The notes beneath the pieces were generated by a model, which saw only the letters and a program-made list of their open reading frames with translations, was not told where the DNA came from and searched no databases. The position numbers and the translations under genes were made by a program. Below are positions 20,570 through 28,177 of a stretch of 64,000 bases of DNA, piece by piece; position 1 is the first letter of the stretch, and every line of letters starts with the position of its first letter. Source of the stretch: Streptomyces sp. WMMB303 (GTDB lineage Bacteria; Actinomycetota; Actinomycetes; Streptomycetales; Streptomycetaceae); the NCBI RefSeq assembly GCF_029351045.1, contig NZ_JARKIN010000001.1, forward strand, positions 4,514,501-4,578,500, written 5' to 3'.

Positions 20570-22735
20570 TCAGCCGCCGGGTGCGGCGGGCAGCGGCTCC
20601 TGCGCGCCGGGCGGCCCGGCGGCGCCGGAGACCGGTCCGGGCCCCTCCGAGGCCGCGGCCAACTGGTCGGCGCCCGGCAGCAGGTGCGGCTGGGCCGACT
20701 CCGCCAGCCAGCGCCGCAGCACCCGGTGCACGGCCTCGGCACCGACCAGCGACCGCCCCGGCTCGACCGGAGGCGACAGCTCCAAGGGGGAGAGCAGGAA
20801 CGCGTCGCTCTGCTCACCGCCCAGCCCGCCGTGCGAGCCGATCTGCTCCTCGAACGCGTGCACCGCACCGGTGGCCGGATCGAGCGCGGAGTTGACCATG
20901 ATGTCCGGGGCGTGCGGGAACCGTGCCGTACGCAGCAGTGCCTGGCGCGCGCCCGCGCCGAACGGGGCCAGCGGGTCGCGGAGGCCGACCACCTCGCCGG
21001 TCTCCAGCCGGTGCTCGCATCCGCCCGCGCCCAGCGCCACCGGTCCGTGCTCGGCGCTCAGCACCACCACGAAGCCGATGCCCGGGTGTTCGGCCAGGGT
21101 GGGCAGCAGGGCCGGGCGCAGTTCCTGGATGCGCTCGCGGGTCAGCCGCCCGGGGTGCTCGGGGAAGGAGACCAGCCCCAGGTTGCCGGAGGCCAGCACG
21201 ACCGGTCCGGTGTCCCGGCGCGGGGTGCGCGGCGCTTCCTGGCCGGACTCCTCGGGGCGGCGCAGGGCCGCGCGCGCCGCGGCCCGCGCCTCCGAGCCGC
21301 TGGCCGTCCGCCCGGCGCGGCGGGGCACCTGCAGCCCGCTGCCCGCCCGGATCAGGTCCTCCAGGGTCAGCCCGTACGCGTGCTCGAACGTCTCCCCGAA
21401 GCTCTGCCCGTGGTCGGAGAGCAGCACCAGCCGGTAGGGCCGCGGCGCGTGCTCGGCGACCTTGGCGATCAGCCGTACCGAACGGTCCAGCCGCCGCAGC
21501 ACCTGCCGGGTGTCCCTGCCGCGCGGTCCCGAGTGGTGTGCCACCTCGTCGTAGCCGACCAGGTCGGCGTAGACCGCCGTCCGGCACCTGAGCATGTCCC
21601 CGAGTACGGCGGCCACCACCACATCCCGCTCGATGACGGTGGCGAACGCGCGGACGAACGGGTACAGCCCGCCGCGGCCCACCCGCGGCCGTTCCCGGCG
21701 CAGCAGCGCGCGGGTGGACTGGACCATCTCGCGGAGCACCTCGGCGACGAACGAGATGGCGGTGCGGGTCGCGTTGGCCGGGTCGGAGAAGTAGGCGAAG
21801 TAGCCGGCGCGGGAGCGGGTCTCCTTGCCGCGGCGGGCCGAGATCGACAGGACCAGCGCGACCTGCCGGGCGCCGCCCGTGAACAGGTTGCCGCGGCTGG
21901 CACCGTCCTGCGCGAGCAGGCCCGGGTCGCCGGTGCGCTCGACGGCACGGCGCTGGAGTTCGGCCGCGCTGGTGGGCCGGTTGCTGACCACGACCTCGCC
22001 CGTCTCCTTCTCGTACCAGCGGAACGCGGGCACGTCGGCGTTGCTGCCGTGCAGGATGCCGAGCTGACTGGCGCCGGTCTGGCTGGACCAGTCGGTGCGC
22101 CAGCGGGTGAGCCGGTGGGTGCGCCCGTACAGCGCGGCGACCGCGGGCATCAGCGGCTCGCCGCCGGGCGGCGCCTCCAGCGCCTCCCTGAGCACCGCGT
22201 GCCCGAGCCCGTCGAGTTGCAGGAAGACCGTGCCGGGAGTGCGAGGCGGCGTGCCCTGGCCCTCGCGCCGCCTTCTGCGGCCCGCGATCCGGGCCAGCCG
22301 GTGCCGGTAGCCCCGGTCGTCGCGGACCGCGAGGAGGGCGTTGGTCGCCGAGGAGGCAGCGGACATGGCGGCGGCCACGACGACGGCCATGGACGGATCG
22401 GCGCTGCCCCTGCCGTAGGGGATCAGGGACAGCGCGAGCCACAGCAGCGACCCGTTGAGGAAGAAGACGAGCAGGCCGAGTACCAGCGCCGGCACCAGCA
22501 GGAAGGCACGCACCAGCAGCGGCCATACCAGAGCGCTCAGCAGGCCGAAGACGCCTGCGCCGACGGCGGCCGTGATGCCGATGACGGTGGCGCTGTCGCC
22601 TTCGGCCGACTGCAACCGGAAATCCGGCAGCACCCCGGCGAGCACCAGCATCGTGAAGGTGCCGGCCAGCCAGACGGCTCCGACGCGGAGCGAGGCCGCG
22701 CCCAGCCTGCGCCACGGTATGCGGGGAACGCGCAC
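20570..22735 (-). CDS. Phosphodiesterase/phosphatase with N-terminal holin-like membrane domain
   Basis: 721 aa. Residues 15-110 hold about four membrane helices resembling the phage-holin-family-4 domain (VWLAGTFTMLVLAGVLPDF, VFGLLSALVWPLLVRAFLL). Residues about 165-680 are an alkaline-phosphatase-superfamily domain of the nucleotide pyrophosphatase/phosphodiesterase kind: FLQLDGLGH near the start, SSQTGASQLGILHGSNADVP as the nucleophile region, and LVGYDEVAHHSGP and VLLSDHGQSFG with metal-ligand Asp/His residues. The catalytic part probably faces outside. It is divergent from the MBL-DedA pair. Substrate unknown; a phospholipid headgroup or wall polymer is possible. Confidence 0.85.
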   Translation of the reverse strand: MRVPRIPWRRLGAASLRVGAVWLAGTFTMLVLAGVLPDFRLQSAEGDSATVIGITAAVGAGVFGLLSALVWPLLVRAFLLVPALVLGLLVFFLNGSLLWLALSLIPYGRGSADPSMAVVVAAAMSAASSATNALLAVRDDRGYRHRLARIAGRRRRREGQGTPPRTPGTVFLQLDGLGHAVLREALEAPPGGEPLMPAVAALYGRTHRLTRWRTDWSSQTGASQLGILHGSNADVPAFRWYEKETGEVVVSNRPTSAAELQRRAVERTGDPGLLAQDGASRGNLFTGGARQVALVLSISARRGKETRSRAGYFAYFSDPANATRTAISFVAEVLREMVQSTRALLRRERPRVGRGGLYPFVRAFATVIERDVVVAAVLGDMLRCRTAVYADLVGYDEVAHHSGPRGRDTRQVLRRLDRSVRLIAKVAEHAPRPYRLVLLSDHGQSFGETFEHAYGLTLEDLIRAGSGLQVPRRAGRTASGSEARAAARAALRRPEESGQEAPRTPRRDTGPVVLASGNLGLVSFPEHPGRLTRERIQELRPALLPTLAEHPGIGFVVVLSAEHGPVALGAGGCEHRLETGEVVGLRDPLAPFGAGARQALLRTARFPHAPDIMVNSALDPATGAVHAFEEQIGSHGGLGGEQSDAFLLSPLELSPPVEPGRSLVGAEAVHRVLRRWLAESAQPHLLPGADQLAAASEGPGPVSGAAGPPGAQEPLPAAPGG

Positions 22736-23021
22736 GTCCGTCAGGTCACCTCCCTCACGGTTGACGGAACAACCTCCACTTTTGCACAGTCTCGTCCGGC
22801 GGCAGGAGGGCGCTCGAGGCGTGCGCGAGGCTCACACGGCGCAGCGTCCGCGCGGGGCGGCGTGGCCGGAGGGCACCGGCGACGGAAGCAGCCGGGGCCG
22901 GAGACGACAGGGCCAGGGGCACGCGGCGGGACCCGGGGCACAGGCGGGCGGTCCGGGCCCCCGACGGGCGCTTAGGCTCGTAGGGGCCGCAGCAGCCGAC
23001 GAGGTCCGGGGAGGAGCGCAC

Positions 23022-23798
23022 GTGCCGGTCGAGGTCACCTGGTGGGGACATGCCACCGCCACCGTGCGGGACTCCGGGGTCACGGTGCTGACGGACCCGT
23101 TGCTGGTACGCCGGCTCGCCCATCTGCGCCGTCGGCGCGGGGCGCTGCCGCCACCGCACGCGGCGCGGGCCGACCTGGTGCTCGTCTCCCATCTGCACGC
23201 CGACCATCTGCACCTCGGCTCGCTCGCCATGCTCGCGCCGGGCACCCGAGTGCTGGTGCCGCGCGGTGCGCTGCGGGCCGTGCCCGGTCTGCGGCGGCTG
23301 GCGCGGGTGCTGGAGCTGGTCGAAGTCGTCCCGGGCGACGAGGTCGCGGCGGGCCCGCTGACCGTCCGGGCCGTCCCCGCCGCGCACGACGGGCGGCGGC
23401 TGCCGCTGGGCCGGCACACGGCTCCCGCCCTGGGGTTCGTGGTGGCGGGCGAGGAGCGCACCTACTTCGCGGGGGACACCGGTCTGTTCGACGGGATGGC
23501 GGAAGCGGTCGGGGCCGTGGACACGGCGCTGCTGCCGGTCGGCGGCTGGGGCCCCTTCCTGGGCGAGGGTCATCTGGACGCGGGCCGCGCCACCGAGGCG
23601 CTGGCCCGGCTGCGCCCGCGCAGCGCGGTGCCGGTGCACTTCGGCACGTACTGGCCGGTGGGCATGGACGCGGTCAGGCCGCACGAGTTCCACTCCCCCG
23701 GCACCGAGTTCAAGCGGCTGGCGGCGCGGCCCGCGCCGGAGGTCGCGGTACACCTGCTGGGGCACGGGGAGAGCGTGCGGCTGGAGGCGGACAGATGA
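23022..23798 (+). CDS. MBL-fold metallo-hydrolase
   Basis: 258 aa from the GTG at 23022, preceded by GGGGAGGAG. The metallo-beta-lactamase motif HLHADHL (HxHxDH) is present, with WWGHATATV at the start and FAGDTGLFDG and PVHFGTYWPVG carrying further metal ligands. This is the UlaG/YcbL-like branch of cytoplasmic hydrolases. It overlaps the next gene by 4 bp (ATGA), so the two products are probably made together. Substrate unknown. Confidence 0.87.
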   Translation: MPVEVTWWGHATATVRDSGVTVLTDPLLVRRLAHLRRRRGALPPPHAARADLVLVSHLHADHLHLGSLAMLAPGTRVLVPRGALRAVPGLRRLARVLELVEVVPGDEVAAGPLTVRAVPAAHDGRRLPLGRHTAPALGFVVAGEERTYFAGDTGLFDGMAEAVGAVDTALLPVGGWGPFLGEGHLDAGRATEALARLRPRSAVPVHFGTYWPVGMDAVRPHEFHSPGTEFKRLAARPAPEVAVHLLGHGESVRLEADR

Positions 23799-24460
23799 CC
23801 GGTGCGCTCCCCGACGGCCTCGGCGCGGTCGTGCACACCGTCTCCGAGGCGGTGGTGCGGCCGCCCGAGTCCACCCAGCAGGCGCTGGGCTACCCCTCAC
23901 TGTTCCTGCTGGTGGTGCTCGGCTCACTGGTGCCGGTCGTCCCGACGGGGGCGCTGGTCAGCGGGGCCGCCGTGGTGGCGCTCCACCAGAGCGTGCCGGT
24001 GCTCGCGCTGCTCGCCGTCTTCGGTGTCGCCTCGCTCGCCGCCTTCCTCGGCGACCTGGGGCTGTACTGGCTGGGCAGGCGCGGCGTCGGCTCCAGGAAC
24101 GGCTCCCGCTGGCTGACGGCGCTGCGCGAGCGGGCCGCCCCCGAACGGCTCGCGCAGGCCGACGCCCGGCTGCGTACGCACGGGGTGACGGTGCTCGTCG
24201 TCTCCCGGCTGATCCCCGCGGGACGGATCCCCGTGATGCTCGCCTGCCTGCTGGCCCGGATGCGGATGCGCGAATTCGCCCGCGGGGACGTCCTGGCCTG
24301 CCTGGCGTGGGCCGCCGCCTACCAGCTCGTCGGCGTCGCGGGCGGCTCCCTCTTCCCCCAGCCCTGGGAGGGGATCGCGGCGGCTGTCGCACTGACCCTG
24401 CTCCTGAGCGCCGCCCCGGCGGTCTGGCGCCGGTTCCGCGGGCCACGCGCCTCGGAGTAG
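23795..24460 (+). CDS. DedA family membrane protein
   Basis: 221 aa with four to five hydrophobic segments (LFLLVVLGSLVPVVPTGALV, VLALLAVFGVASLAAFLGDL, and a C-terminal helix). The DedA/SNARE-associated fold is marked by GDLGLYWLGRRGVG and VVSRLIPAGRIPVMLACLLA. DedA proteins are half-transporters that flip lipids such as undecaprenyl phosphate or phospholipids. Coupling to the MBL hydrolase, and a divergent membrane phosphodiesterase, suggest a lipid or wall-precursor role; this is inference. Confidence 0.87.
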   Translation: MTGALPDGLGAVVHTVSEAVVRPPESTQQALGYPSLFLLVVLGSLVPVVPTGALVSGAAVVALHQSVPVLALLAVFGVASLAAFLGDLGLYWLGRRGVGSRNGSRWLTALRERAAPERLAQADARLRTHGVTVLVVSRLIPAGRIPVMLACLLARMRMREFARGDVLACLAWAAAYQLVGVAGGSLFPQPWEGIAAAVALTLLLSAAPAVWRRFRGPRASE

Positions 24461-24509: not shown

Positions 24510-25892
24510 CTACGCCGCCTCCAGGACCCTGGAGGCTCCCACCGGGAGATCCCACAGGTCCTCGCGGGGGCGCCCCGCCTCGGCCCAGGCCTTCCGTACC
24601 CGGGTGAGCGGCTCCAGCGGGGGCTCTCCGGAGAGCAGGAAGGTGGACCAGTGCATGGGTGCCATCCTGTGCGCGCCCACGTCCTGGCAGGCGCGCACGG
24701 CCTCCTCCGGATCGGTGTGCACGGGTCGCAGCATCCAGCGCGGATCGTAGGCGCCGATGGGCAGCAGCGCCAGATCGATACCGGCGAAGCGACGGCCGAT
24801 CTCGGCGAACCAGTGCCCGTACCCGGTGTCTCCCGCGAAGTACACGCGCTGTCCCTGTGGGTCGGTCAGCATCCAGCCGCCCCACAGGGAGCGGCAGGTG
24901 TCGGTCAGGGTGCGCTTGGACCAGTGGTGGGCGGGCACGAAGTCGAAGCGCACCCGGGCCCTGCCGCTGCCCTCCGGTGCCGAGCCGTCCCGCCGTACGG
25001 GCAGCTCGGCACCCTCCCACCAGTCCAGTTCGGTGACGGTGGTGAAACCGCGCTTGCGGCACCAGGCACCCAACCCGGCCGGGACGAACAGCGGAGTGGA
25101 ACGCGGCAGTCTGCGCAGGGTGGGAGCGTCGAGGTGGTCGTAGTGGTTGTGCGAGATGACGACGGCGTCGATCGTCGGCAGGTCCTGCCAGGCCACCCCG
25201 ACGGGGGTGATACGGGCGGGAGTGCCGAGGATCTTCCGCGACCAGACCGGGTCGGTCAGCACTGTGAGGCCACCGATCCGCACCACCCAGCTGGCGTGCC
25301 CGGCCCAGGTGACCGACAGGCCGTCAGGCCCGGGCCCGGGAAGCGGGCCCGGTGCGAAGGGGAGCTGCGGGACCTCTTCGGCGAGGGCCGTCGCGACCGG
25401 CCGCATCGCACCCTCGCGGGCGAGCCTGGCCAGCGCCCGGACACCGGGCAGCGGCGAGGTGAGCCGGTGCGCGAAGGAGCGGGGCCAGATCCGACGGGCA
25501 CCGACCGGGCGCGGCGGGGAAAGGGCGGGCGGGGGCGGCTGCAGGAGCACGTCGGTGGGACCGGACCGGGTGCTTCCCCCGGCGCAGGGCGGAGCCGCGG
25601 GCCTCTCGGCGACCGGCTGGACACCGTCCTCTCCGCCGTCTCCCCCGGTATCCGGCCGGGCGGCGGCCTCGGAGGACTCGGTCCCGGACGCGCCGGAGAC
25701 ACCGGACGCGTCGGATGCCCCCGCGGCGGGCGTCGCGGGGGACGGCCCCGACGGCCTCCGGGCCGGGGTTCCGGCTGACGGGGTCTGGGCCGAGGGAGCC
25801 CGGGCCGGTCCGGAGGTTTCCGAGGCGGCGGCCCCGTCCGGCCGGGGCGAGGCGGGGGAGGGCTCGGAACGCTGCCCGGTCCGTTCGGTCAT
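24510..25892 (-). CDS. MBL-fold metallo-hydrolase (NAPE-PLD-like) with long disordered N-terminus
   Basis: 460 aa. The first 120 or so residues are Pro/Ser/Ala/Gly-rich and probably disordered. The rest is an MBL fold of the lipid-hydrolase (NAPE-PLD/UlaG) type: VTWAGHASWVVRIGG, SHNHYDHLD (HxHxDH), DFVPAHHWS, FAGDTGYGHWF and PMHWSTFLLSGEP. The ATG at 25892 directly follows the stop of the upstream aminotransferase-like gene, so translation is coupled. A shorter start inside the disordered part is possible. Substrate unknown. Confidence 0.82.
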   Translation of the reverse strand: MTERTGQRSEPSPASPRPDGAAASETSGPARAPSAQTPSAGTPARRPSGPSPATPAAGASDASGVSGASGTESSEAAARPDTGGDGGEDGVQPVAERPAAPPCAGGSTRSGPTDVLLQPPPPALSPPRPVGARRIWPRSFAHRLTSPLPGVRALARLAREGAMRPVATALAEEVPQLPFAPGPLPGPGPDGLSVTWAGHASWVVRIGGLTVLTDPVWSRKILGTPARITPVGVAWQDLPTIDAVVISHNHYDHLDAPTLRRLPRSTPLFVPAGLGAWCRKRGFTTVTELDWWEGAELPVRRDGSAPEGSGRARVRFDFVPAHHWSKRTLTDTCRSLWGGWMLTDPQGQRVYFAGDTGYGHWFAEIGRRFAGIDLALLPIGAYDPRWMLRPVHTDPEEAVRACQDVGAHRMAPMHWSTFLLSGEPPLEPLTRVRKAWAEAGRPREDLWDLPVGASRVLEAA

Positions 25893-27167
25893 CTACTGAC
25901 AACTCCCATCCGTGAGGTCGACCAGCACCGACTGCACCTGTGCAAACGTCGCGGCGGCTCCCGGCCATTCCTGCGGATGCGGTCGCGCGGTCGCCCCGCT
26001 CGTCCCCGCGGCCACCGGCTCGCCCGCACCCCCGTCCTGCTCGGTGGGCCGCGCCGCACCGGGCAGGAGGTCCGTGGCCAGCCGCACCCGCAGCTCTCCC
26101 GGGTCGTCGCCGAAGCGGTGCCCGCCCCGTGCGCACGGGCCCAGCCGCCGCACCAGCTCGGCCTCCAGTCGTGCTGCGTCGGTGACACCCCGCGCGGCCA
26201 GGCGCGGCCGGAAGGGGTCGAGGTCCACGTACAGGTGGCGGCCCAGGTGCGGCGGGCGGCACACCGCACCCGTCGCGGTGACGGCCCGGTGCAGCGCGCG
26301 GGCCGACTCGCCACGCAACCGGGCCGCCTCGTCCCGTCGGGACAACAGCTCGGGAGGCTCCCGCAGGGTGGCGGCGGCCACCGCCGCGACCGGGCCGGGC
26401 AGCCCGGTGCCGAGTTCGGCCAGCAGGTGGTGCACACGTTCGCGGAACGTCCGACCGCGCTCCGTGGCGGCGAACCGGGCGATCCCCGGGAACGGTCTCG
26501 GGGGCGACTCTCCGTGGCGAGGGCCTGCCGGCGGCGCGTCGTCCATCGCGTCGAGTCCGGCGAGCACCACCACATGGTCGGCCCGGCCCGCCTCGGTGAG
26601 CATCTCGGCCGGGCTGACGACGACGGTGTCGTGCGGGTCGTGGGAGGTGTCGCGCCAGGTCTCGTCGCTGACAATCAGCAGTCCCTCGGTGACGGCGGCC
26701 TCGCACACCTCGTGCAGCAGCTCGGGCGGTGGGGCGGTGCCGGTGATGTCGTCGGCGACGGAGAGCACCAGCGTGTGCGGGACCTCTCCCGCCTCGCGGG
26801 ACCTGCGGACCGCCTCCAGCAGCGCGAACGGGTCCGGGATGCCGCCGCACTCCGCGGGCACCGGAACAGTGTGCACCCTCCGGCCCAGCTGTCGCGCCTG
26901 GGCCATGTGCCAGGAGGGACACGGATGCGGAAGCAGTACGCTGCCGGGCGCCCGCAGGCCCTCGCCGCCGCCCTCGGGCGCACCGGCCGCGGCCGCCAGC
27001 ACGGTGAGGAGCAGCAGCGGAGCGCCGGGGGCCACGGCGACCTGCGGAGGGTCGGTCGGCAGTCCGCGGCGGTGCCAGTACGCGCAGGCGGCCGCGCGGA
27101 CGGCGGCCACGGACGGGACGGCGAGCAGCTCGGCGCACCCTCCCCCGCTCTGGTCCGTGCGCCGCAT
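25893..27167 (-). CDS. Aminotransferase-fold protein lacking the catalytic lysine
   Basis: 424 aa from the ATG at 27167, preceded by GGAGG. The order of motifs follows class I/II PLP aminotransferases: LLLLTVLAAAAGAPEGGG, the substrate-loop region PHPCPSWHMAQARQLG, and LLIVSDETWRD in place of the usual DE-x-Y-x-D. The position where SxSK normally binds PLP reads VVLAGLDAMDDAP, with no lysine, and I find no lysine anywhere in the chain. An internal aldimine therefore cannot form. It may be a regulatory, scaffolding or product-binding relic that works with the MBL enzyme it is coupled to. Fold assignment is by eye. Confidence 0.65.
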   Translation of the reverse strand: MRRTDQSGGGCAELLAVPSVAAVRAAACAYWHRRGLPTDPPQVAVAPGAPLLLLTVLAAAAGAPEGGGEGLRAPGSVLLPHPCPSWHMAQARQLGRRVHTVPVPAECGGIPDPFALLEAVRRSREAGEVPHTLVLSVADDITGTAPPPELLHEVCEAAVTEGLLIVSDETWRDTSHDPHDTVVVSPAEMLTEAGRADHVVVLAGLDAMDDAPPAGPRHGESPPRPFPGIARFAATERGRTFRERVHHLLAELGTGLPGPVAAVAAATLREPPELLSRRDEAARLRGESARALHRAVTATGAVCRPPHLGRHLYVDLDPFRPRLAARGVTDAARLEAELVRRLGPCARGGHRFGDDPGELRVRLATDLLPGAARPTEQDGGAGEPVAAGTSGATARPHPQEWPGAAATFAQVQSVLVDLTDGSCQ

Positions 27168-27649: not shown

Positions 27650-28177
27650 ATGACGCGGTTGGTGCGAGACATCATGACGCCCGCGGCGACGACGGTGCGT
27701 CCTGACGCGTCCCTGGTGGAGGCCGCCCAGTTGATGCGCGCACAGGACATCGGGGACGTGCTGGTGGTGAAGGACAGCAGACTGCTCGGGCTGCTCACCG
27801 ATCGGGACATCACCCTGCGTGCGGTGGCCGACGCGGTGGACCCGCTGAGCGTGAACTGCCTCTCGGCCTGCACTCGCGACCCCGTGACCGTCTCGCCGGA
27901 CACGGAGCTGCGGACGGCGGTGGAACTGATGCGTACGCACGCGGTACGCAGACTGCCGGTAGTGGACGGCGGTCGGCCGGCCGGGATGGTCAGCATCGGC
28001 GACCTGGTGCGGGAGAGCGATCCGGAGTCGCTCCTGGCCCACATCAGCCGTGCCGTGCCGGACTCCGGACCGGAACCGGACGTCGGCGGGGCTGCGGACG
28101 AGGGCACCGGAGCACCTCGCGGTGCGGAGGTGAGGCCGCCCGCCGGGCACGAGGACAATCCGCCGCACGCCGGGTGA
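27650..28177 (+). CDS. CBS-domain protein
   Basis: 175 aa from the ATG at 27650. Two CBS motifs fill residues about 5-130: VRDIMTPAATTVRPDASLVEA ... LLGLLTDRDITLRAV, and CTRDPVTVSPDTELRTAVELM ... MVSIGDLVRESDP. The last 40 residues are low-complexity. Paired CBS domains bind adenine nucleotides and sense energy state. Stand-alone proteins of this size are common and often stress-linked in actinobacteria. Target unknown. Confidence 0.9.
   Translation: MTRLVRDIMTPAATTVRPDASLVEAAQLMRAQDIGDVLVVKDSRLLGLLTDRDITLRAVADAVDPLSVNCLSACTRDPVTVSPDTELRTAVELMRTHAVRRLPVVDGGRPAGMVSIGDLVRESDPESLLAHISRAVPDSGPEPDVGGAADEGTGAPRGAEVRPPAGHEDNPPHAG

Follow-up and report, generated by a model that had tools for sequence, protein, structure and literature searches.

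An aminotransferase-fold protein of Streptomycetaceae without the Schiff-base lysine, encoded next to an NAPE-PLD-like hydrolase

The window, the whole 64,000-nt stretch of Streptomyces sp. WMMB303 DNA analysed here, encodes a protein with the fold of PLP-dependent aminotransferases and a PLP site that has lost the Schiff-base lysine along with other cofactor-contacting residues. On balance, this pseudo-aminotransferase is best read as a Streptomycetaceae-specific pseudoenzyme, a non-catalytic binding or interaction module that is associated with the adjacent metallo-hydrolase MBL1 but is not its obligate subunit, and we hold this reading with moderate confidence. Family models assign such proteins to the PLP-dependent aminotransferases, whereas the sequence argues against such chemistry. 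As a pseudoenzyme that is kept in most Streptomyces and has a lysine-bearing sister, the protein is a clean case of an aminotransferase fold after the loss of catalysis; it also draws attention to a hydrolase of the NAPE-PLD type and to a conserved set of membrane genes nearby, in a genus of industrial importance.

A first-pass annotation had described a lysine-free product with the motif order of PLP aminotransferases, encoded next to the hydrolase at 24510-27167. The coordinates proved correct, but the two genes are on the minus strand (ORFs 27167..25893 and 25892..24510). Translation of the first ORF yields 424 residues without a single lysine, and the profile search and structure prediction it had proposed confirm the fold.

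25893..27167, minus strand: coding sequence of the pseudo-aminotransferase (clade A, see below), 424 aa, 0 Lys, fold type I according to Pfam, AlphaFold and Foldseek

The Pfam model PF00155 (Aminotran_1_2) matches residues 7-201 with E=4.8e-6, above the gathering cut-off. The AlphaFold prediction, with a 33-sequence alignment as input, reached a pLDDT of 85.4 and a pTM of 0.86, and the top PDB matches of this model in Foldseek were aspartate aminotransferase (AspAT) and prephenate aminotransferase (E ~1e-17, prob 1.0). The predicted structure thus belongs to the fold-type-I aminotransferases and not to an unrelated fold. Lysine accounts on average for 1.7% of the residues encoded by the genes of the window, and its complete absence from 424 residues has a naive p of ~6e-4. 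The protein is the single member of its family in the genome of the window (G000), where no other match appeared at E<=1e-3, and in this lineage it carries an insertion and an altered N-terminus.

Relatives were gathered from the genus, family, and phylum of the window and from 80 named Streptomyces loci, of which those of Streptomyces sp. AA1529 and S. qinglanensis are closest (82-85% identity). They form two clades: clade A, which includes the window protein and lacks the lysine, and the lysine-bearing sister clade B (32 sequences). Site columns were numbered by mapping to the Thermus AspAT (Tth) and compared between 127 distinct clade A proteins and the 32 sisters.

26748..26750, minus strand: codon of Asp140, which stands in for the Asn of the PLP site (Tth Asn175, E. 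coli Asn194); 121/127 clade A proteins have D, 32/32 lysine-bearing sisters have N
26664..26666, minus strand: codon of Asp168, which preserves the pyridine-nitrogen ligand (Tth Asp203); D in 126/127 clade A proteins and 32/32 sisters
26655..26657, minus strand: codon of Trp171, which replaces the PLP-site Tyr (Tth Tyr206, E. coli Tyr225); W in 106/127 clade A proteins, Y in 32/32 sisters
26547..26549, minus strand: codon of Ala207 at the column of the Schiff-base lysine (Tth Lys234); G in 92, A in 25 and other residues in 10 clade A proteins; K absent from clade A but present in all 32 sisters
26088..26090, minus strand: codon of Arg360, the retained substrate-carboxylate Arg (Tth Arg361); R in 122/127 clade A proteins

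Lysine occurs in none of the 127 clade A proteins at the Schiff-base column or within five columns of it. The contacts to phosphate, ring, and O3 of the cofactor have disappeared as well, namely Tyr64, Lys101, Trp125, Asn175 (now Asp), Tyr206 (mostly Trp), and Arg242 (mostly Pro), whereas clade B retains the full PLP site. What the window protein still shares with class I/II aminotransferases of PF00155 (Thermus AspAT, 1bkg; prephenate aminotransferase, 6f5v) is the fold, the order of motifs, the Asp that faces the pyridine nitrogen, and the Arg that faces the substrate carboxylate. The motifs of clade A read SVADDPTATV, SDETWRD, and DLAGALLPPGWP, and their counterparts in clade B TLPDNPTGTL, SDEIYRD, and GLSKNLALGGWR. 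The initial claims that no Schiff base with PLP can form and that the Tyr of the PLP site is replaced within ETWRD therefore stand, the latter residue being the Tyr206 equivalent, and no orthologue keeps the catalytic lysine. Covalent binding of PLP would thereby be gone, and the state of the other ligands suggests that PLP is probably not bound at all. Fold-type-I enzymes that work with PMP after a Lys-to-His exchange exist (ColD), and the retained equivalents of Asp203 and Arg361 would be in line with an enzyme that binds PMP or PLP without a covalent link or uses the former pocket for chemistry independent of PLP. However, the lysine column of clade A contains Gly or Ala instead of His, and the phosphate ligands (Tyr64, Lys101, Arg242) are all lost together with the stacking Trp125. 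Residual catalysis is thus improbable.

Complete freedom from lysine was also considered as the key trait and rejected. The total lysine count is zero in 94 clade A proteins, one in 25, two in 7, and three in 1, so that the expected conservation of lysine loss among orthologues applies to the PLP lysine in 127/127 but not to lysine-freeness as such, which is absent in 33/127. Because the count varies between 0 and 3 across the clade, the complete absence of lysine probably follows from high GC rather than being the trait that matters.

A family match at E<=1e-20 is present in 139 of 150 Streptomyces genomes, at least three of which encode only a clade B paralogue (41-43% identity), and most genomes show one family match. 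Within the Streptomycetaceae, 14 of 17 genera contain some family match, and clade A itself was confirmed by sequence in several genera other than Streptomyces. Outside this family, four homologues were detected at E<=1e-30 in 397 genomes of the phylum, all of them lysine-bearing. In a tree of 74 proteins, the lysine-less members lie on one side of a single branch (SH-aLRT 100, stem 0.57) that is nested in lysine-bearing lineages. The loss of the PLP site maps to this one branch, on which the lysine and the residues contacting phosphate, ring, and O3 were lost together, and clade A has a single origin. Its ancestor was a lysine-bearing fold-type-I aminotransferase of the secondary-metabolism type.

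The sequence of the pseudo-aminotransferase is under purifying selection. The median dN/dS of 304 close pairs, calculated by NG86, which is an approximation at high GC, was 0.26 for the pseudo-aminotransferase and 0.20 for MBL1, and 73 alignment columns of clade A are conserved at >=95%. Fast evolution in the lineage of the window (dN/dS 0.37, as compared to 0.12 for MBL1), one frameshifted copy, and one truncated copy might be taken as signs of a relaxed aminotransferase remnant in decay. This explanation conflicts with the conserved columns and with the full-length ORF that most Streptomyces carry and that also occurs in several further genera; a dN/dS of about 0.26 combined with presence in most Streptomyces excludes a decaying pseudogene, and we give the idea very little credence. 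Since selection has preserved the fold together with the two remaining site residues, the pyridine-nitrogen Asp and the Arg for the substrate carboxylate, the protein is most likely a non-catalytic module. It may bind small molecules resembling carboxylates or amino acids, or interact with other proteins, perhaps through the Asp and the Arg; the putative ligand pocket is deduced from these two retained residues only. The two damaged copies each have a context of their own. At L047:5188-6599 the gene is frameshifted and split over three ORFs in a genome (G005) that also lacks MBL1, which represents decay in one lineage. At L237:5432-6766 (G570) only the first ~74 profile positions match and the adjoining MBL1 lacks its N-terminal part, apparently due to a deletion that spans the junction.

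Clade B proteins resemble the window protein in length and motif order (34-41% identity), but differ in their complete PLP site, in the absence of an MBL1 neighbour, and in their neighbourhoods, which look like biosynthetic operons. One group (L043, L044, L045, L048-L054, L085) is encoded with KamA-family radical SAM proteins and often an AMP-ligase, possibly in a natural-product cluster. Another (L046, L058, L059, L061-L066, L068-L072) occurs with genes for ArgC-like proteins, amino-acid kinases, GATases, ELFV dehydrogenases, and ligases, a possible second biosynthetic cluster; ArgB-like and amino-acid dehydrogenase genes are also found beside the ArgC-like genes.

Fold-type-I proteins without the PLP lysine have precedents, which qualifies the novelty that the first-pass annotation had attached to a non-catalytic aminotransferase, although we found no publication on this family among open-licence papers. 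SPTLC1/LCB1 is the non-catalytic subunit of serine palmitoyltransferase, has fold type I, and lacks the PLP lysine (PMC3794620), but forms a heterodimer with a catalytic paralogue. A corresponding pairing of the pseudo-aminotransferase with a lysine-bearing paralogue, as of LCB1 with LCB2, might be sought in clade B, members of which coexist with clade A in some genomes (G092, G179, G005). However, the genome of the window encodes no such close paralogue and most genomes have a single match; the paralogue-free genomes refute the pairing as a general rule and reduce its probability to next to nothing. Rv3778c of Mycobacterium tuberculosis, an actinobacterial PLP-fold protein without the lysine, is likewise presumed to be non-catalytic (PMC12910592), but is related to cysteine desulfurases, and that paper does not state a link to class I/II aminotransferases or MBL proteins. 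The family described here is distinguished from these proteins by its class I aminotransferase ancestry, by the lack of a catalytic partner paralogue in the genome of the window, and by its association with an NAPE-PLD-like hydrolase.

This hydrolase is encoded directly downstream, and the stop codon TAG is followed immediately by its ATG, as had been noted at the outset.

25890..25895, minus strand: TAG/ATG junction, the stop codon of the pseudo-aminotransferase gene directly adjoining the first codon of the hydrolase gene (read from the sequence; conservation counted at 67 loci)
24510..25892, minus strand: MBL1, NAPE-PLD-like metallo-hydrolase (460 aa) whose N-terminus is extended by an Ala/Pro-rich stretch (~residues 1-130), identified by ORF, Pfam, and alignment to human NAPE-PLD

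MBL1 matches human NAPE-PLD (4qn9) with E=1e-61 over 279 residues. All metal (zinc) ligands (HxHxDH, His, Asp, His) are aligned, and MBL1 is a genuine NAPE-PLD homologue; it differs in being bacterial and in its extra Ala/Pro-rich N-terminus. Frequencies of MBL1 were taken from genome lists and named loci. Of the named loci, 79 were assessable; 70 of these have MBL1 directly downstream of the pseudo-aminotransferase, and the start and stop codons overlap or abut in 25 of the 67 loci measured, with gaps of 1-60 nt in another 31. The arrangement is operon-like, and gene order and codon overlap suggest that the two genes are usually co-transcribed. In many species they are probably also translationally coupled.

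The original proposal went further and saw in the protein a non-catalytic partner or sensor of the hydrolase. Its non-catalytic half is well supported by the confirmed fold and the universal lack of the PLP lysine, whereas the evidence for the partner role is circumstantial. As a dedicated partner, the pseudo-aminotransferase would bind MBL1 and, by analogy with SPTLC1/LCB1 and its catalytic subunit, control how active MBL1 is, how substrates reach it, or where it sits at the membrane. The operonic order and the overlapping codons are consistent with such a role, as are the frameshifted gene in the MBL1-less genome G005 and the lack of an MBL1 orthologue in 20 genomes of other genera, which do not have the clade A gene and contain only paralogues of MBL1 at <=48% identity. 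A restriction of MBL1 to carriers of the pseudoenzyme, which would fit these 20 genomes, had to be rejected inside Streptomyces. Several apparent gene absences were traced to contig ends or divergent copies. MBL1 is gone from the genome while the pseudoenzyme is kept in nine named genomes and in G173, which corresponds to about 6-9 losses on the tree (~9 changes, six forced by well-supported branches) without relocation of MBL1. In a sister pair without MBL1 (L142-L178), the ORFs are full-length and dN/dS is still 0.27. Conversely, three or four genomes (G566, G673, G639, and probably G638) have MBL1 without the pseudoenzyme, which is truncated in G570. Pairwise tree distances revealed no co-evolution specific to MBL1 (partial r 0.32, versus 0.64 with the neighbouring DedA protein), and no natural fusions of the two proteins were found at the loci surveyed. 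Because of the losses in both directions, the unchanged selection, and the weaker tree correlation than with DedA, neither gene is strictly dependent on the other, strict co-occurrence as in an obligate two-gene module is absent, and MBL1 is not an obligate partner. A dedicated partnership is therefore conceivable but doubtful. The two proteins probably share a process, in which the pseudo-aminotransferase, as a non-obligate module, might either modulate MBL1 or work in parallel with it.

The usual gene order around clade A may hint at this process. The pseudo-aminotransferase and MBL1 are followed by the convergent DedA and MBL2 genes and then by the gene of a membrane protein in the same orientation as the first pair.

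23795..24460, plus strand: DedA/VTT-domain membrane protein, conserved convergent neighbour with weak similarity to models of the undecaprenyl-phosphate transporter UptA
23043..23798, plus strand: MBL2, second MBL-fold hydrolase (domain part), joined to DedA
20570..22735, minus strand: membrane protein with Phage_holin_4_2 and Phosphodiest domains, conserved neighbour

This block (window 20570-24460) is kept beside the pseudo-aminotransferase across Streptomyces, and a PAP2-DAGK lipid kinase is often encoded upstream. Judging from the DedA, PAP2-DAGK, and phosphodiesterase neighbours, the context of clade A would be an envelope or lipid process of the housekeeping type. It is tempting to speculate that the genus-wide pseudo-aminotransferase uses what is left of its substrate site to detect a ligand, either amino-acid-like or a lipid head group, and switches the NAPE-PLD-like hydrolase by direct contact. 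Such a switch, unlikely as we consider it, would couple metabolism to the turnover of membrane lipids in Streptomyces. A phage or defence origin was rejected, as searches with PHROGs and PADLOC gave no match. In the window, a protein with two CBS domains (27650-28177) is encoded divergently from the pseudo-aminotransferase; it was not found as a conserved neighbour at other loci. In several species, the divergent upstream gene encodes a fusion of a PAP2 phosphatase with a diacylglycerol-kinase domain (L039:11005-12591 and homologues).
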